Below are positions 1,367 to 16,785 of a stretch of DNA of 16,802 nt, piece after piece. The notes under the pieces were generated by a model that saw nothing but the letters and a program-made list of their open reading frames with translations, was not told where the DNA came from and did no database searches. Origin of the DNA: Bdellovibrionales bacterium. GTDB taxonomy: Bacteria; Bdellovibrionota; Bacteriovoracia; Bacteriovoracales; Bacteriovoracaceae. Numbering within the stretch: position 1 is the stretch's first letter; each line of letters begins with the position of its first letter. The stretch lies in NCBI GenBank assembly GCA_005791855.1, contig SXUH01000052.1, forward strand, positions 1 through 16,802. The letters run 5' to 3'. The position numbers were made by a program, and so were the translations under genes.

Positions 1367-1397
1367 TTCTCTCACCTCAAGGATGAGGCTGAGAGAA
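1367..1397 (+). promoter_or_regulatory. Leader stem-loop of flagellin gene 1 with CsrA-like AGGA loop
   Basis: TTCTCTCA (1367-1374) pairs perfectly with TGAGAGAA (1390-1397), and CCTCA (1375-1379) pairs with TGAGG (1384-1388). This gives a 13-bp stem with one bulged C (1389) and the tetraloop AGGA (1380-1383). The loop and its flanks read CAAGGAUG, the core of the SELEX CsrA site RUACARGGAUGU. A second CAAGGAGG (1404-1411) is the Shine-Dalgarno itself. In Bacillus subtilis hag, CsrA binds such a pair of sites, one in a hairpin and one over the ribosome binding site. The structure is seen; regulation by CsrA here is inferred. Confidence 0.55.
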
Positions 1398-1415
1398 CCC
1401 AATCAAGGAGGATTT

Positions 1416-2264
1416 ATGGGTTTACGGATTAACACTAACGTTTCGTCGCTGAACGCGCAGAGAAACTTAGGTGTCACCAAGCTGTCTCAGAACAAGGTTC
1501 TCGAGCAGTTGTCATCAGGTCAGAGGATCAACCGCGCCGGGGACGACGCCGCGGGGTTAGCGATCTCTGAGAACTTAAAGGCCCAGATCAGAGGTCTTGG
1601 CCAGGCGGAGAGAAACGCCCAGGACGGTGTGTCCCTCGTGCAGATCGCGGAAGGCGCCCTCGCCGAAGTCGGAAACATCATGATCCGTCTCCGGGAGCTT
1701 GCAGTCCAGTCAGCTTCTGATACCATCGGACCAACAGAAAGAAAGTTCCTCAACGTGGAATTCGAGCAGCTCCTCTCGGAAGTCGACCGGATCGCGAACT
1801 CCACCGAGTTCAACCGCGTCCCGCTTCTCAACGGAACCGGCTCCGTCCTCGACATCCAGATCGGAACGCGGAACGACCCCTTATCCGACCGGTTGACCTT
1901 CGACGCCTCCGCGGCCGACGTCAACGTCGCGGCCCTGGGGCTCAACCTCGCTTCGGTCTCCGACAAGATTTCCTCGCAGAACTCTCTGGCGGCGATCGAC
2001 CAGGCGATCCAGAACGTCTCCGGGATCCGCGCGGACTTCGGTGCGCTCCAGAACCGGCTCCAGTCGACGATCAACAACATCCAGGTGAGCAACGAAAACC
2101 TGTCGGCCGCGAACTCTCGAATCCGCGACACCGACATCGCCGCGGCGACCTCGGAATTGACGAGAACGAACATCTTGATGCAAGCAGGTACTTCAGTTCT
2201 GGCGCAGGCGAACCAGTCTACGACGAACGCTATCAGCCTTATCAACGCTGCTTCTCAGGGGTAA
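1416..2264 (+). CDS. fliC: Flagellin 1
   Basis: This is a flagellar filament subunit of 282 aa, exported through the flagellar type III apparatus. It begins MGLRINTNVSSLNAQRNL and has the N-terminal D0/D1 signature with SSGQRINRAGDDAAGLAIS (about residues 36-54), the IRLRELAVQSASDT motif, and a C-terminal D1/D0 part with SAANSRIRDTDIA and a helical end. There is no D2/D3 insertion, so the filament surface would be minimal, as in other short flagellins. The start at 1416 has AAGGAGGA 3 bases upstream; an in-frame ATG at 1383 lies inside the leader hairpin and would destroy the conserved flagellin N-terminus, so it is rejected. A second flagellin gene follows 180 bases downstream. The first and last 30 or so codons are richer in A/T-ending codons than the middle. 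Confidence 0.97.
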   Translation: MGLRINTNVSSLNAQRNLGVTKLSQNKVLEQLSSGQRINRAGDDAAGLAISENLKAQIRGLGQAERNAQDGVSLVQIAEGALAEVGNIMIRLRELAVQSASDTIGPTERKFLNVEFEQLLSEVDRIANSTEFNRVPLLNGTGSVLDIQIGTRNDPLSDRLTFDASAADVNVAALGLNLASVSDKISSQNSLAAIDQAIQNVSGIRADFGALQNRLQSTINNIQVSNENLSAANSRIRDTDIAAATSELTRTNILMQAGTSVLAQANQSTTNAISLINAASQG

Positions 2265-2312
2265 GTCCCGGGGAGCCGCTTGAAGAATTGACGTAAAACG
2301 AATCCTGCAAAA

Positions 2313-2337
2313 ACTTGTAGTGGGTGTACTAGCAAGT
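2313..2337. repeat. Stem-loop between the two flagellin genes
   Basis: ACTTGTAGT (2313-2321) pairs with ACTA (2328-2331) plus CAAGT (2333-2337) around a GGGTGT loop, with one bulged G at 2332. It lies about 50 bases after the flagellin 1 stop. The downstream sequence is T/G-rich but has no clean U-tract. It could be a weak terminator or an mRNA 3'-end stabiliser; no better terminator is visible for flagellin 1. Confidence 0.3.
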
Positions 2338-2348
2338 AGGTTTGAAGG

Positions 2349-2377
2349 TTGGTTTTCTTAGGAAACTTAACTATTAA
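2349..2377 (+). promoter_or_regulatory. Candidate sigma-70-type promoter of flagellin gene 2
   Basis: TTGGTT (2349-2354) and TATTAA (2372-2377) are separated by 17 bases. The predicted start, near 2384, is just ahead of the leader hairpin at 2386. The match is partial (about 3-4 of 6 at each box). I found no sigma-28-like element here, so the two flagellin genes may be driven by different sigma factors. Confidence 0.3.
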
Positions 2378-2385
2378 CAACACAG

Positions 2386-2402
2386 GTAGACAGGACGTCT
2401 AC
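2386..2402 (+). promoter_or_regulatory. Leader stem-loop of flagellin gene 2 with AGGAC loop
   Basis: GTAGAC (2386-2391) pairs with GTCTAC (2397-2402) around the loop AGGAC. The stem closes with AC/GU as in SELEX CsrA ligands. Two further GGA sites follow: ATGGAGG (2411-2417) and the Shine-Dalgarno CAGGAGA (2431-2437). The arrangement parallels the flagellin 1 leader although the surrounding sequence differs. Confidence 0.4.
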
Positions 2403-2444
2403 AAACGAACATGGAGGTTCACGATGCTAACAGGAGACTAGACT

Positions 2445-3278
2445 ATGGGACTACGAATTAATACGAACGTTGCCAGCTTATCTGCGCAACGGGCCTTAGG
2501 AATAACGAAGAATAACTTGGACAGCAACTTACGGAAGTTGTCCAGCGGTGAAAGGATAACTCGCGCCAGTGACGATGCGGCTGGGTTAGCGATAAGTGAA
2601 AGACTTAAAGCCAACATCAGAGGATTGCGCCAGGCGAAGAGGAACTCAGAAGATGGTATATCGCTTATACAAACTGCTGAAGGTGGCCTCAACGAGATCT
2701 CTAACATCATTATTCGACTCAGAGAGCTCTCCGTCCAGGCAGCCTCTGATACCGTGGGAGATAAAGAGCGTGGCTTCTCTGACATCGAATTCCAGCAACT
2801 CATCGACGAGGTCCAGCGGATCGCGAAGGGGTCGGAGTTCAACGGACGGAAGCTCCTCGACGGCACCGGTGGGATGGTTGAAATCCAGGTTGGGATCCAT
2901 AACGATGCGACCAATGACCGCATCCGGTATGACTCGGCCATCACCGACGCCACCATCGAATCCCTCGGTCTCATTGGAGAAACTTGCAGAACCAAAGAAG
3001 GGGCGCAACTTTCACTGGCGAAGATGGATGAGGCTTTGGTACGACTCAACGGAACTCGTGCCAACTTGGGGGCCCTACAGAACCGACTGCAATCCGCGAG
3101 CAACACGATCGCGATTACGGAAGAGAACTTTAGCGCTGCCAACTCTCGGATCCGCGACGTCGACGTGGCCGCCGAGACCGCTGACCTGACGAGGAACAAC
3201 ATCCTCCAGCAGGCCGGAGTCTCCGTCCTCTCGCAAGCGAACCAAGCTCCGACCACGGCCTTGAAGCTTATTGGTTAA
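2445..3278 (+). CDS. fliC: Flagellin 2
   Basis: This is a second filament subunit of 277 aa, starting MGLRINTNVASLSAQRAL. It has the same D0/D1-only architecture as flagellin 1, with SSGERITRASDDAAGLAIS near the N-terminus, IRLRELSVQAASDT, and SAANSRIRDVDVAAET near the C-terminus. It carries one Cys (GETCRTKEG), which is uncommon in flagellins. The start has CAGGAGA about 8 bases upstream. Several codons in the first quarter are A/T-ending (TTA, CGA, ATA), unlike the GC3-rich rest. The gene ends at a strong intrinsic terminator. Tandem flagellin paralogues often build different zones of one filament; that is known for related bacteria, and inference here. Confidence 0.97.
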   Translation: MGLRINTNVASLSAQRALGITKNNLDSNLRKLSSGERITRASDDAAGLAISERLKANIRGLRQAKRNSEDGISLIQTAEGGLNEISNIIIRLRELSVQAASDTVGDKERGFSDIEFQQLIDEVQRIAKGSEFNGRKLLDGTGGMVEIQVGIHNDATNDRIRYDSAITDATIESLGLIGETCRTKEGAQLSLAKMDEALVRLNGTRANLGALQNRLQSASNTIAITEENFSAANSRIRDVDVAAETADLTRNNILQQAGVSVLSQANQAPTTALKLIG

Positions 3279-6359: not shown

Positions 6360-6431
6360 GACTTTCGTATCGGAGAATGGAGAGGGGAATTGAGGAGAAT
6401 AGAGGTCTGGGGGAAGGCTTAAAACGGTTTC

Positions 6432-6457
6432 GCGCCCCTTGAAAACAAGGTGGGCGC
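6432..6457. repeat. GC-rich hairpin upstream of the secreted-protein gene
   Basis: GCGCC (6432-6436) pairs with GGCGC (6453-6457), and CCTTG (6437-6441) pairs with CAAGG (6446-6450) around an AAAA loop, with a two-base bulge (6451-6452). It falls in the predicted leader, or at the start site, of the minus-strand secreted-protein gene. It has no U-tract. Confidence 0.45.
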
Positions 6458-6458
6458 A

Positions 6459-6486
6459 ATTAGTAATCACTTTAGGCTTCTCACAA
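6459..6486 (-). promoter_or_regulatory. Candidate promoter of the secreted Gly/Cys-rich protein gene
   Basis: On the minus strand TTGTGA (6486-6481) and ACTAAT (6464-6459) are 16 bases apart, each matching 4 of 6 consensus bases. The palindrome at 6488-6507 abuts the -35. The call is weak. Confidence 0.25.
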
Positions 6487-6487
6487 T

Positions 6488-6507
6488 CTGGCTCAATGCT
6501 GAGCCAG
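6488..6507. repeat. Perfect palindrome CTGGCTCA-ATGC-TGAGCCAG
   Basis: Two 8-base arms flank a 4-base spacer. There is no U-tract on either side. Its position one base upstream of the candidate minus-strand -35 suits a regulator-binding site for the secreted-protein gene. Confidence 0.45.
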
Positions 6508-6727
6508 GCAAGCGTGCACACCGTGATCAGGGACCGCTCCCGAAATAAAAATCGTAGGGGCGAAACTTTATGGCTTCCGACCCAGACCCACACCCATCAT
6601 ATCCCATTTTAGTGGGCTCCGTCAGAGGCAAGTTTAGTAAATGTTGGCAGTCCCGTTTTTACGAACACTTGTAGTTTCAACACCTTGTAAATGTAAATAG
6701 TTTATTCCAAGGGAGGAGATTGTTTAA

Positions 6728-7074: not shown

Positions 7075-7293
7075 ATGAATCTCATCACTCAGACAGGCCA
7101 GGCGACAGTAGAATACATCTTCATTCTGGCCTTCGTGTTTTTCCTCGGCTTCAAGGTCACCAACCAGTTCACAAACTTCTTCCGAGATTCGATGGGGAAC
7201 GTGGGCCATGTCCTCTCCTCCCACCTGACCGTCGGCATCTGCCCGTCCCGCTGCTTCTTCACCAACTACGTCAACTCCTACGGGTCGCAATGA
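7075..7293 (+). CDS. Second Flp-like prepilin with Cys pair
   Basis: This 72-aa prepilin has an 8-residue leader, MNLITQTG, then QATVEYIFILAFVFFLGF. It keeps the Gly-Gln cleavage junction and the Glu-Tyr pair. After the helix comes a tail with GICPSRCFF, a C-x3-C pair that could form a disulphide outside the membrane. GGAG lies only 2 bases from the ATG, a tight spacing that may lower translation relative to the first pilin. It follows the first pilin by 64 bases and overlaps cpaA by 4 bases (ATGA). It is likely a minor pilin. Confidence 0.85.
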   Translation: MNLITQTGQATVEYIFILAFVFFLGFKVTNQFTNFFRDSMGNVGHVLSSHLTVGICPSRCFFTNYVNSYGSQ

Positions 7294-10034: not shown

Positions 10035-11769
10035 GTTCACTCTTCTCCTCTGCATCCTGCTCCCACTCTACAGCGGCCCCAGCGTCGCGCAGGATCCGGC
10101 TACGCCGGAGGCTCCGGTGACCGAGACCCCCTCGACGGACCTTTCACCTAGCATCGAACCAACGCCGTCAGTGACGGCCACCCCGGAACCCACTGCTGAA
10201 CCCGCCCCGGCTCCGGAACCAACACCGGCTCCAGCGTCGGCACCGGCCACGCCTCCCGCGGCGGCGACCCCTCCCGCGGAAGACACGACGGCCGCGGCCC
10301 TCGGCGGAGCACCGGCGGTCACCGCGAGCAGCGTGGTGGAGAAGGAACTGGAAGTCGCCATGGGCATCGACACGGTCGAGAAGATCGACTTCGACTTCAG
10401 CACGAAGATGTCCATCGGGAACGACGAACTCCTGAAGCTCGTCATCATCCCCCAGAAGCGGGAGATCATCTTCTCCGGCCGCAAGCCCGGCCGGACCACG
10501 GTCCTCATCCGCGACAACGTCGGCGACATCCGCCTGCGGTACACCGTCGTCGTCACCGCCACCGGGAAGTCCAACACCGTCTCCGAACTCCGGGAACTCA
10601 TCGGTGACGTCGAGGGCCTCGAGATCGGGATCAAGGGCGGGAAGGTCTTCGTCGGCGGAGAGATCGTCGTCCCGGACGACATCGGCCGGGTCTCGCAGGT
10701 CCTCGCGAACTACCCCGAGGTCCTCGTCCTCATCGAGCTCTCCCCGCAAACCCAGCGGGTCATCGCCCGGAAGATGAGCGACGAGCTCGCGCGGAACAAC
10801 CTCAAGGACGTGACCGTGCGGATCGTGAACAACGCCTACTGGCTCGAAGGCGTGGTGAGCAGCAAGGATAAGAAGGACCTGGCCAACGTCATCGCCAAGG
10901 CCTACCTCCCGCCGAAGATCAAGACCCTCTCCGCGGAGAGTTCGCGCTACGGCTCGCAGAAGGACACGGACATCTACGACTTCATCGCCGTGAACGAGAA
11001 GAAGGATCCCCAGCCGGCGCCGAAGATGGTGAAGATCACCTCCCAGTTCGTCGAGCTCAGCAAGCAGTACGGGAAGATCTTCGCGTTCAAGTGGGCCCCG
11101 CTCATGGGCGCGGACGAGAGCCGGATCTCCTTCGGACAGACGAGGAGCGGGAACGTGACCTCGACCTCCTCCGGGACCCTGAGCGCCACCATCAGTAACC
11201 TGTTCCCGAAGCTGAACTCGGCCAAGACCGCGGGCTACGCGCGGGTCATCCAGTCCGGGATGGTGATCGTCCGGGACGGCTACCAGCAGGGCGGATCCAT
11301 CTCCAAGCAGACGACCATCCCGTACGCCATCGGAACGGGAGAGTTCACGAAGGCGACCCAGGCCTCCGTCGGCCTGGACATGAACGTCATCCCCCGGGTC
11401 CTCGAGGAGGAGAAGGTCGAGCTCGGTCTTTCCTTCTCCGTGAGCCTCCGGATCGGAACGAACGAACCGCCGCAGACCACGTCGAATAACATCAAGACGA
11501 ACCTCGTCGTGAAGTCCAAGGAATCGGCGGCCATCGGAGGGATCGTGCAGAACCAGTCCTCCACCGACTACGACAACACGTCCAACGACCCGGCCCCGCT
11601 CCAGGCCGCGGGGGGCGGCGCCGCCGCCGCTCCGCTGTTCCGGTTGTTCCGAGCGAAGGCGTACCAGACGAACAAGACCCAGTACGTGATCTTCGTCACC
11701 CCGGAGATCATCGAGTCGGCGACCATCGGAACCGAAGAGATCCGAAGGAAATTCCGGAGAAGAGAGTAA
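10024..11769 (+). CDS. cpaC: Tad outer-membrane secretin CpaC/RcpA
   Basis: This 581-aa protein forms the outer-membrane pore for the pilus. It has a signal peptide (FTLLLCILLPLYSG, cleavage after SVA, about residue 22). A Pro/Ala/Thr/Glu-rich linker follows (about 25-90), unusually long for the family and probably extended or wall-spanning. Then come the pilus-secretin N-terminal domain (about 110-175), an N1/BON-like domain (about 180-300) and the secretin domain (about 335-575) ending YVIFVTPEII. A GGGAAAA segment near 530 lies in the lip region. It starts with GTG: AGGAG lies 6 bases before the GTG at 10024 and 3 before the adjacent GTG at 10021, so 10024 is preferred. Its TAA shares one base with the next ATG. 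Confidence 0.93.
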   Translation: MIDRFTLLLCILLPLYSGPSVAQDPATPEAPVTETPSTDLSPSIEPTPSVTATPEPTAEPAPAPEPTPAPASAPATPPAAATPPAEDTTAAALGGAPAVTASSVVEKELEVAMGIDTVEKIDFDFSTKMSIGNDELLKLVIIPQKREIIFSGRKPGRTTVLIRDNVGDIRLRYTVVVTATGKSNTVSELRELIGDVEGLEIGIKGGKVFVGGEIVVPDDIGRVSQVLANYPEVLVLIELSPQTQRVIARKMSDELARNNLKDVTVRIVNNAYWLEGVVSSKDKKDLANVIAKAYLPPKIKTLSAESSRYGSQKDTDIYDFIAVNEKKDPQPAPKMVKITSQFVELSKQYGKIFAFKWAPLMGADESRISFGQTRSGNVTSTSSGTLSATISNLFPKLNSAKTAGYARVIQSGMVIVRDGYQQGGSISKQTTIPYAIGTGEFTKATQASVGLDMNVIPRVLEEEKVELGLSFSVSLRIGTNEPPQTTSNNIKTNLVVKSKESAAIGGIVQNQSSTDYDNTSNDPAPLQAAGGGAAAAPLFRLFRAKAYQTNKTQYVIFVTPEIIESATIGTEEIRRKFRRRE

Positions 11770-13886
11770 TGGCAGGTCACATCATCAGCATCATCGGCGG
11801 GAAGGGCGGCGTGGGGAAGTCCCAGGTCGCCGCGAACCTCGCGTTCGCCTACGCCGGCGAGCTCCGGGCCAAGACGCTCCTCCTGGACTTCGACCAGAAG
11901 GCCTGCGGTGACCAGAACATCATCACCGGGCTCAAGTCGAAGAAGAACATCAAGGAACTCTCGGAGTTCTCCGGCGCCATCGACCCGCGCTCGATCCAGC
12001 TCTTCACGGCCGAGCACAAGTCCGGCATCTCCTTCATCGGCATGCCGACGGAGCCGATCGCCGCGAACCAGATCAACGAGGAGGGCCTCGGCAAGGCCCT
12101 CAAGGCCATGGTCAACATCTACCCGGTGATCATCATCGACGCCGGGAGCGAGCTCTCCCCCCTGGCGCTCAAGGCGCTGGAGTTCTCGACCCTCATCTTC
12201 CTCGTCGCGTCCCCGGACCTCCTCGCGGTGAACCAGTGCCGGCGGATGTACTCGGACCTCACGACCATGCTCTTCCCGAAGGACATGATCCAGATCCTCG
12301 TCAACCAGGCGGTCAATGGCCACCCGGTGAGCCCGGAGGTCATCGGCAAGCAGATCGGGAAGCCGGTCTTCCACGCGATCCCGAAGGACGACGGGAGCTG
12401 CATCGCCGCGCTCTCCCGATCCACCCCGGTGATCGTGGGAGCGAAGAGCTCTCCCTTCGGAGCGGGGGTCACGGACTGCGCCCGGAAGCTCATCCAGAAG
12501 AACGTCCTCAAGACCCTCGAGCGGCTGACGAAGCCGACCGACGCCGGCGCCGCCTCCCAGGCCTCGAGGAACGGCGACTCGGCTTCCGACGACAAGAAGA
12601 AGGACGTCTGGACCGAACTCAAGGGCCGGATCCACAAGTCCCTCGTCGAGGAGATGGACTTCAAGAAGCAGGACGACAACGACCCGAAGGCGAAGATCAT
12701 CCTGCGGGAGCAGACCAAGAAGCTCGTCGTCGAGCTCCTCGGGAAGGAAGACACCAAGAACATCCTCCCCACCCGGGAGGACATGAACCGGATCGTGAAG
12801 GAGATCCTCGATGAAGCCCTGAGCCTCGGGCCCCTGGAGGACATGCTCGCCGACAAGACGATCTCCGAGATCATGGTGGTGGGGCCGAAGAAGATCTTCT
12901 ACGAACAGAGCGGGAAGGTGAAGAAGTCCGAGATCACCTTCACCAACGACCGCCAGGTCATGAACGTCATCGAACGGATCGTCGCACCCATCGGCCGGCG
13001 CATCGACGAGAAGACTCCGTACGTGGACGCCCGGCTCCCCGACGGGTCCCGGGTCCACGCGATCATCCCCCCGTGCTCCATCGACGGCTGCTGCATCACC
13101 ATCCGGAAGTTCCCGGACAAGCGCCTCAACTACAAGGACCTGGTGAAGTTCGGGTCGATGACCGAGGAGATGGCGGACTTCCTCCGCATCTCCGTCGAGG
13201 CCCACCGGAACATCGTCGTCTCCGGCGGCACCGGGTCCGGGAAGACCACGCTCATCAACCTCCTCGGCGGATTCATCCAGTCCAACGAGCGGATCATCAC
13301 CTGCGAAGACTCGGCCGAGCTGAACTTCCCCCAGGACCACGTCGTGCGACTCGAGACGAGGCCCCCGTCGCTGGAGGGGGACGGGGAGATCGACATCCGC
13401 TGCCTCGTGAAGCAGACCCTCCGGATGCGCCCCGACCGGATCGTCGTCGGAGAGTGCCGGGGCGGCGAGACCCTCGACATGCTCCAGGCGATGAACACGG
13501 GCCACGACGGCTCCATGACCACGGTCCACTCGAACACGCCGCGGGACGCGATCAGCCGCCTCGAGACCCTGGTCCAGTACGCCGGCGCGGGCCTTCCCCA
13601 GAAGGCCATCAAGGAGATGATCGCCTCGGCGGTCCACATGATCATCCAGCAGTCCCGCCTCGACGACGGGTCGAGGAAGATCCTCTACATCACCGAGATC
13701 GGCGGGATCCAGAGCGACGTCGTGACCCTCCAGGACATCTTCGTCTTCAAGCAGGAGGGGATGGGCAAGGACGGGAAGATCCAGGGGAAGTTCATGGCCA
13801 CCGGCTTCATCCCGAAGTTCATCGAAACCCTAGAGAAGAAAGGCTACAAAGTCCCCCGCGGACTTTTCATGAATAAGACTGCATGA
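11769..13886 (+). CDS. cpaF: Fused CpaE(TadZ)-CpaF(TadA): localisation ATPase joined to pilus motor ATPase
   Basis: This is a single 705-aa chain. Residues 1 to about 265 are a ParA/MinD-type ATPase as in TadZ/CpaE: deviant Walker A GGKGGVGKS (10-18), LLLDFDQKACGDQN (Asp40) and Walker B IIIDAGSE (Asp124). There is no separate N-terminal receiver-like domain, so it is shorter than Caulobacter CpaE. A charged, Ala/Ser-rich linker (about 266-290) joins a full CpaF/TadA secretion ATPase: N-terminal helical part (about 290-390), Walker A GGTGSGKTT (486-494), DRIVVGECRGGE (556-567) and MNTGHDGSMTTVHSN. In most Tad loci these are separate proteins. The DNA is one clean frame with no stop. It would both position and drive pilus assembly at the inner membrane. 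It overlaps tadB by 4 bases. Confidence 0.93.
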   Translation: MAGHIISIIGGKGGVGKSQVAANLAFAYAGELRAKTLLLDFDQKACGDQNIITGLKSKKNIKELSEFSGAIDPRSIQLFTAEHKSGISFIGMPTEPIAANQINEEGLGKALKAMVNIYPVIIIDAGSELSPLALKALEFSTLIFLVASPDLLAVNQCRRMYSDLTTMLFPKDMIQILVNQAVNGHPVSPEVIGKQIGKPVFHAIPKDDGSCIAALSRSTPVIVGAKSSPFGAGVTDCARKLIQKNVLKTLERLTKPTDAGAASQASRNGDSASDDKKKDVWTELKGRIHKSLVEEMDFKKQDDNDPKAKIILREQTKKLVVELLGKEDTKNILPTREDMNRIVKEILDEALSLGPLEDMLADKTISEIMVVGPKKIFYEQSGKVKKSEITFTNDRQVMNVIERIVAPIGRRIDEKTPYVDARLPDGSRVHAIIPPCSIDGCCITIRKFPDKRLNYKDLVKFGSMTEEMADFLRISVEAHRNIVVSGGTGSGKTTLINLLGGFIQSNERIITCEDSAELNFPQDHVVRLETRPPSLEGDGEIDIRCLVKQTLRMRPDRIVVGECRGGETLDMLQAMNTGHDGSMTTVHSNTPRDAISRLETLVQYAGAGLPQKAIKEMIASAVHMIIQQSRLDDGSRKILYITEIGGIQSDVVTLQDIFVFKQEGMGKDGKIQGKFMATGFIPKFIETLEKKGYKVPRGLFMNKTA

Positions 13887-14854
13887 TGAAACTTCTTTCG
13901 ACCCTATTCCTCCTCACCAGCGCCACGACGGCCGTCGCCCAGGACGTGGCGCCGAAGCGGCAGATCGACTTCTTCCTGGACGTCCTGGGCCTCAAGGGAG
14001 TGCTCTTCACCCTCGGGGCCCTGACCTTCGCCTACTCGTACAAGAACAGCGTCAAGCTCTTCTCCTGGATCGACGACCAGACCTACGGGACCCGCGACTA
14101 CATCCTGAAAAAATTCGAGATCATGTTCATCGAAGTCGACCCGGAGAAGATCACCTGGGTCCTCCTCGGCATGTCCTTCGGGATGGGGATCCTCACTTTC
14201 TGCGTCCTCGCCCTCCTCGGGAACCTCCCCCTGGCGCTCTTCCTCGGGACCATCGTCCTCGTCATCGGCTGGAAGTCGCCGAAGCACATCGTGGACTTCT
14301 TCGAGAACCGGAGGAAACGGAAGTACGCCATCCAGATGGTGGACGCGCTCAACCTCCTCGCCAACGGGATCCGCGCGGGCCTCAGCATGCCCCAGGCCAT
14401 CGGCATGGTCGTCGACGAGCTCCCGGCCCCCATCAGCCAGGAGTTCAACAAGGTCCTCCAGCAGGCGAAGATCGGCGTCCCCATGGACGAGGCCCTCGAG
14501 AACCTCAAGAAGCGGGTGTACACGGAGGACAACGAGATGTTCGTCACGAGTGTCAACATCCTACGCGAAACCGGGGGCAACCTTGCCGAAACTTTCGACA
14601 CCATCGTCCTGGTAATCCGGGAACGGGTCCGGCTCCAGCTGAAGATCGAGACCTACGTGGCCTCCGGAAAGATCCAGGCCTATATTATTGGCGCCATGCC
14701 CTTCCTCATGATCCTCATGTTCGGCTCCGGGGATCCCGACTACTTCCCCCTCCTATTCGGAACCTTCTTAGGAATCATAGCCTTAGCCGTGATCTGCGGG
14801 ATGGTGGCCTTCGGGATGTGGGTCATTTTGAAGATAATTGATATTAAAGTTTAG
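13883..14854 (+). CDS. tadB: Tad inner-membrane platform protein TadB
   Basis: This 323-aa T2SSF-type platform protein works with the CpaF ATPase. The cytoplasmic helical core is clear: LLANGIRAGLSMPQAI, then QQAKIGVPMDEALENLK and ILRETGGNLAETFDTI. Transmembrane segments lie at about 36-53 and 89-133 plus two at the C-terminus. The N-terminus (MMKLLSTLFLLTSATTAVAQ) looks like a cleavable signal peptide ending AVA, unusual for a platform protein. Two ATG codons (13883, 13886) are possible; the first gives an ATGA overlap with the ATPase gene. No TadC follows, although most Tad systems have both TadB and TadC. The last 30 or so codons switch to A/T-ending codons. Confidence 0.9.
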   Translation: MMKLLSTLFLLTSATTAVAQDVAPKRQIDFFLDVLGLKGVLFTLGALTFAYSYKNSVKLFSWIDDQTYGTRDYILKKFEIMFIEVDPEKITWVLLGMSFGMGILTFCVLALLGNLPLALFLGTIVLVIGWKSPKHIVDFFENRRKRKYAIQMVDALNLLANGIRAGLSMPQAIGMVVDELPAPISQEFNKVLQQAKIGVPMDEALENLKKRVYTEDNEMFVTSVNILRETGGNLAETFDTIVLVIRERVRLQLKIETYVASGKIQAYIIGAMPFLMILMFGSGDPDYFPLLFGTFLGIIALAVICGMVAFGMWVILKIIDIKV

Positions 14855-14873
14855 CGGAACTTTTACCGAAATA

Positions 14874-14879
14874 TATAAT
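14874..14879 (+). promoter_or_regulatory. Candidate -10 box before the YD-repeat gene
   Basis: A perfect TATAAT lies in the 56-base gap after tadB, within an AT-rich stretch. Transcription would start near 14886, about 25 bases before the ATG. The -35 is weak (TTTAGC at 14850-14855). The terminal gene pair may therefore be expressed partly apart from the pilus genes. Confidence 0.4.
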
Positions 14880-14910: not shown

Positions 14911-16536
14911 ATGAAGTTTTTAAGACTCTTACTCGCTCTGATGACCGCGGCCATGGCGTCGATGGCCTTCGCCGGAGTGAACTTAAAAAACGGTAACTTT
15001 TACATCTCGTACACTGATATCGTCGTCCCCGGCGGCGGAAAGAAACTAGAGATCACCCGGACCTACAACTCGAAGTCCACCGACGTCGGCTGGTTCGGCT
15101 TCGGCTGGGGGAGCGAGTTCGAAACGCGGCTCGAGCTCTCGGCGGACGGCTCGGTGGTGATCCACGAACACGGCTCGGGCGCGAAGTCGCGCTTCACGCC
15201 GAAGGCCGCCATCGACCCGGTCGCCGCGGCGTCGAAGATCGTCGCGGAGATGAAGAAGAAGACCGCCCTCTCCGAGACGGCCACCGCCGACCTCGTCAAG
15301 AAGCTCGCCGCGAACGCCGAGCTCCGGCACACCTACGCGCTGAACTTCGGCGTCCAGACGTCGGTCGCCGCCGGGACCGTCCTCTACTCGGATGACCGCG
15401 GCCCGCAGCAGCTCCACGTGCTCAAGGACGGCTACCGCCGAGCCCACGGCGACGGCCGCCAGGACTACTTCAACAAGGACGGCCAGCTCGTCAAGATCGC
15501 CGACAAGTCCGACTACAGCATCTCCTTCATCTACAAGAACGGGAACCTCGACTCGATCAAGGACTCCCAGGCCAAGCAGATCTTCTTCTCCTGGTACCCC
15601 GGGGGCCTCGTGAAGGAAATGTGGTCCGCCGGTGACAAGAAGGCGTTCTACAAGTACCAGGACACGGACCTGGTTTCCTCGAAGGACGTCGGCGACAACA
15701 CCTACGAGTACGGCTACGACAAGTCCCACAACCTCACCGAGATCCGCTACACCGACAAGTCGAAGCTCACCGTCGCCTACGACCCGAAGACGTTCTTCGT
15801 CACCCAGGTGGTCGACCGGAACGGGGAGGACACCAAGTACCAGTACGGCTCGAACCCGAGCAAGCCGGACGACCACTACTGGACGATCGTGACGAAGCCG
15901 GGCTTCGACGGCCAGCCGGTGGCGAACCGCTACGAGTACGAGATCAAGGCCAAGCCCGACGGGTCTCGCTACACCTACCGCATCGTCACCGACATCAACG
16001 GGATCAAGACGGACACGATCTACGGAGACAACTCGCTTCCGGTGAAGATCGCCCGCGGGAACCACGTGACGAACTTCGAGTACAACAAGAATGGCCTCCT
16101 CACGAAGAAGTCGTCGACGAAGGGCGACTTCGTGAACATCGAGTACGACGAGGCGATCAATAAGATCAAGAAGGTCGTGAACAACGAAGGCACCACGAGC
16201 TTCGACTACGACCAGAAGGGGAACCTCGTCAAGGCCGCGAACAACGCCGGCAAGACCGTGTTCCTGATCTACGACACGAAGGGGAAGATTTCGAAGATGG
16301 TTGACCAGGAGTCGGCGAGCTCCCGGCGGACCCTCGCGTTCAAGTACAACGCGCTCGGGAAGCCGGTGGAGATCGAGATGGAGAAGGTCGGGAAGATTAA
16401 CGTCGCCTACGACAACTATGGCGAGATCAAGAAGGTCGACTCGAGCGCCGGGCACAAGATGGCGCTCCAGGTGACCCAAGCGTTCCAAAACCTACTAACA
16501 ATCGTTAAGCCCGCGGGCGTTAACCTGAACATGTAA
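14911..16536 (+). CDS. Secreted RHS/YD-repeat protein (Bd0109-like candidate)
   Basis: This 541-aa exported protein has a signal peptide (MKFLRLLLALMTAAM ending AFA, cleavage after residue 21). An RHS N-terminal region follows, DUF6531-like: NGNFYISYTDIVV, ITRTYNSKS, GWFGFGWGSEFE (61-72). From about residue 175 there are degenerate YD repeats, such as YEYGYDKSHNLTEIRY, FEYNKNGLLTKK, FDYDQKGNLVKA and IYDTKGKISKM. It has no cysteine, and no DPxGL-type core end or toxin tip. The ATG at 14911 is chosen for the signal peptide and AGGTGG 4 bases upstream; the in-frame ATG at 14878 overlaps the -10 box. In B. bacteriovorus the YD-repeat protein Bd0109 lies next to flp pilus genes and pairs with Bd0108; the match here is from recalled gene order and architecture only. 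Confidence 0.85.
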   Translation: MKFLRLLLALMTAAMASMAFAGVNLKNGNFYISYTDIVVPGGGKKLEITRTYNSKSTDVGWFGFGWGSEFETRLELSADGSVVIHEHGSGAKSRFTPKAAIDPVAAASKIVAEMKKKTALSETATADLVKKLAANAELRHTYALNFGVQTSVAAGTVLYSDDRGPQQLHVLKDGYRRAHGDGRQDYFNKDGQLVKIADKSDYSISFIYKNGNLDSIKDSQAKQIFFSWYPGGLVKEMWSAGDKKAFYKYQDTDLVSSKDVGDNTYEYGYDKSHNLTEIRYTDKSKLTVAYDPKTFFVTQVVDRNGEDTKYQYGSNPSKPDDHYWTIVTKPGFDGQPVANRYEYEIKAKPDGSRYTYRIVTDINGIKTDTIYGDNSLPVKIARGNHVTNFEYNKNGLLTKKSSTKGDFVNIEYDEAINKIKKVVNNEGTTSFDYDQKGNLVKAANNAGKTVFLIYDTKGKISKMVDQESASSRRTLAFKYNALGKPVEIEMEKVGKINVAYDNYGEIKKVDSSAGHKMALQVTQAFQNLLTIVKPAGVNLNM

Positions 16537-16548
16537 GAGGATTGAAAT

Positions 16549-16785
16549 ATGAGATTCACAAGCCTGGCCCTGTTCCTGTCACTAGTCATGTCTTCCGTCT
16601 CCGCGCAGGAGAGGTCCGCCCCGGGACAGCTCGAGGACTCCGATCCGTGCAAGTGCCACAAGGCGGACAACAGCTGTCCTCCGAGGCCGAACTGCAACAC
16701 CTCCTCCCGCTCCTCCGGGAAGTCGCTCATGAACGTCGCCGAGAAGAAGGCCCCGTCGAAGCGAACCTCAACGACGAAGCAGTAA
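16549..16785 (+). CDS. Small secreted Cys-containing protein (Bd0108-like candidate)
   Basis: This 78-aa exported protein has the signal peptide MRFTSLALFLSLVMSSVSA (cleavage after residue 19). The mature part is about 59 residues, polar and probably disordered, with four Cys: C34-x-C36-x6-C43-x5-C49. A Ser/Lys/Thr-rich basic tail follows. AAGAGGA, overlapping the stop of the YD-repeat gene, lies 7 bases before the ATG, so the two genes are co-transcribed (12-base gap). Position, export and size resemble Bd0108 of the Bdellovibrio hit locus (about 101 aa as I recall), but I could not compare sequences. The 17 bases after it hold nothing recognisable. Confidence 0.75.
   Translation: MRFTSLALFLSLVMSSVSAQERSAPGQLEDSDPCKCHKADNSCPPRPNCNTSSRSSGKSLMNVAEKKAPSKRTSTTKQ
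16701..16718 (+). repeat. 9-base tandem repeat inside the small secreted protein gene
   Basis: CTCCTCCCG is followed directly by CTCCTCCGG, encoding SSR-SSG. Slippage would remove or add three residues in frame. Confidence 0.5.

Follow-up and report, generated by a model that had tools for sequence, protein, structure and literature searches.

A hit-like module at the end of a Tad operon in a relative of Bdellovibrio: a probable Bd0109 orthologue and an array of small, apparently exported proteins with covarying C-terminal pentapeptides

How Bdellovibrio chooses between attack and growth is a long-standing question, and bd0108 has so far been called Bdellovibrio-specific. A Tad/Flp operon in a contig from a Bdellovibrionales bacterium closes with two genes arranged like those of the hit locus, which raises the question of whether the hit module reaches beyond Bdellovibrio and of what it consists. 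The window analyzed here is the whole contig of 16,802 bases (genome G000); it stops 3' of the last gene, S1, so that any following sequence, with this genome's S2, falls outside it. The operon occupies the window from about position 7290 onward, and its products include, by Pfam, a Peptidase_A24-like protein (26.0 bits, slightly below the cut-off), RcpC/CpaB, a secretin, TadA and T2SSF/TadB, together with a pilin candidate of weak Flp1 likeness, below the cut-off. The TadA-type ATPase (11769-13886, + strand) has an N-terminal ParA/MinD-like domain (CbiA at 6-215, T2SSE at 351-628) and is possibly a TadZ-TadA fusion. After the gene of the TadB-type protein (T2SSF; 13883-14854, +; PF00482, 67.3 bits) come a YD-repeat gene, here called YD (14911-16536, +), and the small gene S1 (16549-16785, +); the YD stop codon TAA is at 16534-16536 and the S1 ATG is at 16549, 12 bases on. 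A sequence-only reading of this DNA had described such a pair, a YD-repeat protein and a small secreted Cys protein behind tadB on the same strand, and its coordinates proved right. Upstream of the operon, two tandem flagellin-like genes were read from the translations at 1383-3278 (+). A 6S RNA (RF00013, 54.7 bits against a gathering threshold of 46.4) is located at 6400-6591 (-); on that strand it lies ahead of where an exported, Gly-rich Cys protein likely starts.

The YD protein, predicted to be exported, has 541 residues and begins with a signal peptide (14911-14973, +, end approximate) that was read from the sequence without a predictor. Two Pfam families match above their cut-offs, DUF6531 (62.1 bits) and RHS_repeat (57.3 bits), and a third, DUF4595, below its own. 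The AlphaFold model, built from a 31-row alignment, is fairly confident (mean pLDDT 84.8, pTM 0.65) and predicts YD beta structure that contains a helical insert and closes with a helix at the C-terminus. The insert would consist of three helices at residues 103-145 (15217-15345, +), and the C-terminal helix belongs to a strongly conserved end, residues 515-541 (16453-16533, +), delimited from the alignment and the model. In a Foldseek search with this model, the best solved matches were T6SS Rhs cores, followed by teneurins and Tc proteins, with E values down to 3e-22 and TM-scores of at most 0.50. Pfam found no toxin or protease domain at the YD C-terminus, which in the alignment with Bd0109 is among the most conserved parts of the protein.

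Bd0109 of strain HD100 is 34% identical to the window YD and collinear with it over the full length, C-terminal helix included, and the gene layout is that of bd0110-bd0109-bd0108. HD100 was recognized as genome G154, the sole exact match among 368 genomes to the bd0109 RT primer of Capeness et al. (four of 368 match with at most two mismatches). The 212 loci with a closed YD frame were reduced to 151 distinct proteins by removing redundant sequences, defined by identity of their final 300 residues; 131 of these score at least 500 and 20 are distant, and each sample size below is the number of loci with enough flanking DNA. TadB lies upstream of YD in 127 of 130 distinct loci at a YD score of at least 500 and in 14 of 20 below it, counts that are if anything low, because the rule overlooked TadB in four loci whose negative calls are artefacts (L118, a longer HD100 stretch, L130, L151 and L155). 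A YD tree of 53 rows follows the families (f1 clade 97/99, f6+f11 clade 100/100), with deep nodes that are unsure and long branches that join. In a B. exovorus-like genome, the unlinked YD copy pairs with the Tad-linked one (99/99) and is, by this tree, a late duplicate; the unlinked copy in B. exovorus has been favored as the hit equivalent (PMC4267844). In this genome (G040; L135 and L136), each of the two Bd0109 copies, whether linked to Tad or not, is followed by a small exported protein.

A database search with YD gave 901 matches, and the best 120 of these 901, the window itself apart, are 77-88% identical; where an organism is named for them, it is Peredibacter or Bacteriovoracaceae. 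A single-sequence search found YD in 54 of 58 genomes, its own included, and in all 37 near-complete ones. With a profile that contains Bd0109 (A1, E 1e-20), 342 of 368 genomes of the phylum have a match, usually one, as do 227 of the 234 near-complete genomes; two genomes of 99% completeness (G125 and G207) have none at this E value and are possible module losses. The full-length identity, the Tad linkage and the tree together support YD as an orthologue of Bd0109, a possibility that the sequence-only reading had raised. Bacteriovorax-type relatives with a Tad-linked Bd0109 homologue have already been published (PMC4267844, PMC5430801), as has the synteny of bd0109-bd0113 common to BALOs (PMC5430801, PMC4267844); the essentiality of Bd0109 and its binding to Bd0108 have been published for HD100 only.

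The second gene is less easily placed. S1 (78 aa) has a signal-peptide-like N-terminus, signal peptides being called by a crude rule, four Cys residues (C34, C36, C43 and C49; 16648-16695, +) and a C-terminal pentapeptide, STTKQ (16768-16782, +), which in relatives covaries with the tails of S2 and S3. By fixed criteria, an exported Cys ORF begins at most 260 nt after the YD stop in 125 of 130 loci with a YD score of at least 500, compared with 1/130 on the reverse strand and 1/130 in shuffled sequence. A database search for S1 homologues returned only S1 itself, and comparison with Pfam and NCBIfam gave no match. The NCBIfam family NF053838 (hit_Bd0108), which scores 102 bits on HD100, did not match the window S1 at E 0.1 (test threshold at least 40 bits); among relatives it gave 16.7 bits for one S1 (L001) and no match for another (L007). 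When the mature S1 region of the genus was compared with Bdellovibrio S1 by profiles, the probability was 0.73%, against 92.8% over 20 columns with the signal peptides kept. The window S1 has a CKC motif and two more Cys without CXXC, several relatives have CGPC or CxxC, and one published Bdellovibrio homologue of Bd0108 is likewise without CXXC (PMC4267844). The NF053838 and mature-region results rule out S1 as a member of the Bd0108 family by sequence, so the homology that had been proposed for the small protein was sought and not found. The two proteins have in common their position, an export signal, Cys residues and a K/S/T-rich end, and S1, like Bd0108, appears exported and is encoded immediately 3' of a Bd0109-type gene. 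At best, S1 is the positional counterpart of Bd0108. Of the grounds for doubt named in the sequence-only reading, the lack of sequence similarity to Bd0108 was thus borne out, but the gene order is shared and the YD matches are not unrelated RHS proteins.

Upstream of YD, a sigma28-like element, TAAAGTTT-N12-ACCGAAA (14845-14871, +), was located by pattern scan and genus comparison; it overlaps the tadB stop codon and resembles what we take to be the sigma28 consensus, with a spacer one base longer. It is the sole match in the window, and none is expected in shuffles. Among the 24 genus loci (YD identity at least 75%), TAAAGTTT-N12-xCCGAxA precedes the YD gene with a spacing of 12 in 23; all 24 share the spelling ATTAAAGTTT at the tadB end, although synonymous codons would allow others. 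Outside the genus the element is often missing, and a stricter pattern, TAAAG-N13..17-CCGATA, occurs in 80 of 246 loci, duplicates included. This element is the putative promoter of YD and S1. A TATAAT (14874-14879) had been put forward as the pair's own -10 box; it occurs in only two of the 41 upstream regions compared, the window included, and was discarded in favor of the conserved sigma28-like element. In Bdellovibrio, FliA controls the TAD operon promoter, and Bd0108-Bd0109 are outside FliA control (PMC5430801).

S1 is seldom the last small gene. At YD scores of at least 500, a further small exported ORF (S2 or later) was found in 115 of 127 loci with room, and a re-run with controls gave 110 of 127 for S2 versus 4 on the reverse strand and 3 in shuffled sequence; behind the distant YD genes (below 500), S1 is present in 13/19 loci and S2 in 3/19. 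In genus g1, S2 and a third gene, S3, are clear paralogues (profile probability 99.78%), and a search of 12 other genomes of the genus found two copies in every one, always next to YD; in G016 there is also a weak match to part of the sequence at another site (E 0.005, 25 positions). In the window genome no S2/S3 copy was found, because the contig ends. Mature S1 and mature S2 have no profile homology to each other (3.4% and 3.0%). By gene order and frame, the hit locus is an array of putative small exported genes, not a pair.

The array includes HD100, where S2 coincides with a published transcript. Capeness et al. (2013) described a non-coding RNA at 96455-96716 in the hit locus of HD100, which is raised in bd0108 mutants (PMC3818213). 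HD100 S2 occupies 96483-96683 on the bd0108 strand (337-537, -, in stretch L077, to which 96146 is added for genome coordinates) and lies wholly within this RNA; the published sRNA primers land at their stated HD100 coordinates, and, the RNA's strand being absent from the consulted description (PMC3818213), the overlap is one of coordinates. A Shine-Dalgarno sequence, AAGGAG, precedes the S2 ATG, and terminator-like stems were seen by eye between bd0108 and S2 and after S2. No Rfam family was found in the HD100 region that holds the sRNA (L118). In four hand-picked close pairs, two of which include HD100, dN/dS is 0.018, 0.041, 0.00 and 0.09 for S2 and 0.043, 0.076, 0.038 and 0.054 for S1, and the S2 differences fall mostly at third codon positions (1, 0 and 12 at the three positions for HD100 and L078). 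Among Bdellovibrio pairs with dS below 1.5, the median dN/dS of S2 is 0.62 (40 pairs) and that of S1 is 0.18 (14 pairs), and S2 thus evolves fast over longer times. A hypothetical gene between bd0108 and bd0103, BD_RS00505 (PMC5941755), is probably S2; among the open-licence PMC papers searched, this tag occurs only in PMC5941755, which is without the term "small RNA." HD100 S2 has a 95% identical database relative, which is catalogued as hypothetical or lipoprotein. These observations suggest that the published hit-locus "non-coding RNA" encodes the S2 protein; between close species the S2 ORF is under purifying selection. A protein gene in this place would alter the understanding of existing bd0108 mutant data.

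The small proteins of one genome resemble each other at their very ends: examples of S1/S2/S3 tails are KVRGQ/KVRSQ/RVVRQ, HVAPR/PVAPR and SNTSK three times. The test of this likeness was designed after the tails had been looked at. In 113 genomes, the BLOSUM62 sum over the terminal pentapeptides of S1 and S2 is 6.51 for own pairs versus -0.45 (sd 0.43) for shuffled ones (0/2000), and with shuffling confined to clades of at least 80% YD identity (68 genomes) it is 7.56 versus 3.97 (sd 0.53; 0/2000). Compared with the S2 of the three nearest relatives, the own S2 tail is closer to the S1 tail in 83 cases, less close in 28 and equal in two. The z values at positions -1 to -5 are 8.5, 6.8, 8.6, 8.8 and 7.1; they drop to about 3 at -6 and -7 and are mostly below 2 further upstream, with -10 and -13 near 3. 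Segment -12 to -6 gives a weaker signal that is yet above the null (1/2000), and three other control segments give little or nothing (267, 93 and 1341 of 2000). The 47 genomes with a third gene show the same for S1-S3 (5.09 versus 1.09) and S2-S3 (9.57 versus 1.00; both 0/1000).

Against 188 flank-gene tails at 27 loci, the S1 tails show nothing (481/1000), versus 0/1000 for S1-S2 at the same loci; even so, a mean of 14.6% of flank-gene tails equal or surpass the S2 tail in likeness to that of S1. At matching degenerate positions in 90 genomes, the same codon is used at 63 of 151, where 64.4 are expected. The covariation is therefore at the protein, not the codon, level, and DNA repeats or gene conversion are ruled out as its source by codon sharing at expectation. 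Exact identity is uncommon: the last three residues of S1 and S2 agree in 8 of 92 genomes (shuffled mean 2.13) and the last four in 2 of 92, which is not significant, and the HD100 tails, GTGRQ and SKGWN, agree weakly. No YD column covaries with the tails: the best r is 0.252, below the 95% point of 0.366 in a null of 60 shuffles, and YD was rejected as the tail receptor on this result. Taken together, the tail comparisons suggest that S1, S2 and S3 share a species-specific five-residue tail.

We propose, with belief and doubt in equal measure, that the window carries the attack-phase hit module of a Peredibacter-type relative and that its small exported proteins have in common a tail for docking to, or signalling through, a single partner. 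YD, an exported shell protein of Rhs type that is highly conserved, would be made together with the fast-evolving exported S1; their common promoter would be the sigma28-like element where the Tad operon ends, so that expression presumably falls in the attack phase, when the cells are motile. As in Bd0108, S1 would bind YD through its N-terminal half, leaving a disordered C-terminal part free. The genome-specific pentapeptide of S1, S2 and S3 would bind one common, co-evolving partner, for which the small proteins would be alternative or competing ligands, and the balance of these ligands would signal to the cell whether to remain in attack phase or to grow. In NMR titrations, residues 24-66 of Bd0108 respond to Bd0109 and residues 89-101 are unaffected (PMC4267844), and because of the latter the tail may be free for a second partner, possibly in common with S2 and S3. 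The absence of a covarying YD column is in line with this partner not being YD, and a balance of S1 and S2 fits the rise of the sRNA, here the S2 RNA, upon bd0108 mutation. Promoter function, a partner that binds the tail, competition for it, an influence on growth and the control of predatory growth in this organism are what we infer. A wider reading, possible though doubtful, is that the predators of this phylum carry a genome-specific C-terminal pentapeptide code on the hit-locus small proteins and on some unlinked exported proteins. A co-evolving receptor would recognize this code, which would serve as a species-private signal or address and gate the switch from predator to growth, and the "sRNA" would be the mRNA of the second member. 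If the small protein belongs to a widespread array with covarying tails, the old question becomes testable through the tail binder.

The tail could also be a general C-terminal sorting or processing tag of exported proteins, not confined to the hit locus and recognized by a fast-evolving receptor or a tail-specific protease, an alternative that we consider unlikely and that turns on tails elsewhere in the genome. A scan of G062 with the tail of this genome gave eight DNA matches: the three hit-locus genes, four implausible short frames and T4, a full-length exported protein of 256 residues. T4 (L255-L266) is a Cys protein with no Pfam family above the cut-off; searches found it in 12 of 13 genomes of that genus and, as a weak match, in one of 25 further genomes. 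Its tail matches the hit-locus tails of its own genome (13 genomes; 12.85 versus 8.52, sd 0.92, 0/5000), with a poor fit in G063 and G092, and in 11 genomes it matches S1 (6.82 versus 2.43, 0/5000) and S2 (13.36 versus 9.80, 8/5000). The AlphaFold-type model of T4 is weak (mean pLDDT 62.6), with residues 210-256 nearly all below 50, so that the C-terminus is apparently disordered, as might suit a tag. The G060 scan gave 13 matches, including T4 and another long exported gene, T5; a 137-residue frame among them (L290) is likely spurious. In G016, six matches include S2 and one exported gene (L217, 1501-1938, -), whose product ends in SASAQ, resembling hit-locus tails. L217 has matches in four of 18 genomes (G016 itself, G000, G004 and G015), and the sole homologue with its C-terminus read, that of G000, is without the tail. 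Against a general tag, the exact-tail scans of G161 and HD100, with five matches each, gave only S1 as a plausible full-length exported protein; a 504-codon HD100 frame without signal peptide (L277) was set aside as probably antisense. The tail as a putative tag outside the hit locus is thus supported in one genus only.

A secreted peptide signal resembling Phr or AimP, specific to the species and with the small proteins as its pre-propeptides, is in our judgment decidedly unlikely. Each precursor would comprise a Sec signal, a variable spacer and a pentapeptide that would be cut off and sensed by kin, with S1, S2 and S3 encoding nearly one peptide. The concentration of covariation in the last five residues, the several genes per genome with similar tails, the divergence of tails between species and the export signals would all agree with this, as would the quorum-sensing-like character of host-independent growth mentioned in PMC4267844. 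However, the same tail is found on T4 and perhaps on T5, which are long proteins, a pattern that a docking tag fits better, and the 42-bp deletion in bd0108 (residues 73-86) should retain the tail, yet it gives a mutant phenotype (PMC3818213, PMC4267844). These alternatives overlap with our preferred reading, and the likelihoods we attach to them are not exclusive.

A reading of the locus as an ordinary, conserved Rhs/YD gene next to Tad genes, accompanied by unrelated small exported ORFs and with the likeness of tails due to composition or tandem duplication, is quite improbable. The ends of the small proteins are rich in K/S/T/G, and S2 and S3 are paralogous, but the flank-gene and segment controls, the within-clade shuffles and the codon test speak against it, and the tails match although mature S1 and S2 lack profile homology. 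An Rhs polymorphic-toxin/immunity pair, with YD as toxin carrier and S1 as immunity protein, would suit the Rhs-core fold and the small gene directly after it but is hardly credible, given that Pfam finds no C-terminal toxin or protease domain, that the conserved YD C-terminus is the opposite of polymorphic toxins, and that S1 itself looks exported.

The preferred reading, a hit module with a shared tail, can be set beside known systems. In its YD-repeat fold the YD protein is like T6SS Rhs cores, teneurins and Tc B/C proteins, and it is unlike them in having only 541 residues and a signal peptide, without a toxin or protease domain. Phr and AimP are made as small exported precursors with a short variable C-terminal peptide; S1 and S2 are like them in this pattern only, and differ in their Gram-negative host and in a tail that also occurs on a long protein. 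With the HD100 hit locus, the window shares TadB, an exported YD/Rhs protein and a small exported Cys protein 12-15 nt on, all on the same strand, and HD100 and the relatives share a second small exported ORF further down. It departs from HD100 in the length of the small protein (78 residues versus 101 in Bd0108), in the lack of detectable mature-sequence homology, and in the sigma28-like element directly upstream of YD in this genus, whereas the bd0110-bd0109 gap of HD100 is only about 30 nt. The hit-locus RNA of Capeness et al. (2013) is in the same place as HD100 S2, described there as non-coding and read here as a putative exported ORF. The closest published likeness is Halobacteriovorax marinus, in which BMS_0182, a Bd0109 homologue, has two small signal-peptide neighbors, BMS_0183/4, without homology to Bd0108 (PMC4267844). 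Unlike that single published case, the arrangement described here is common across the sampled phylum, and its tails covary.
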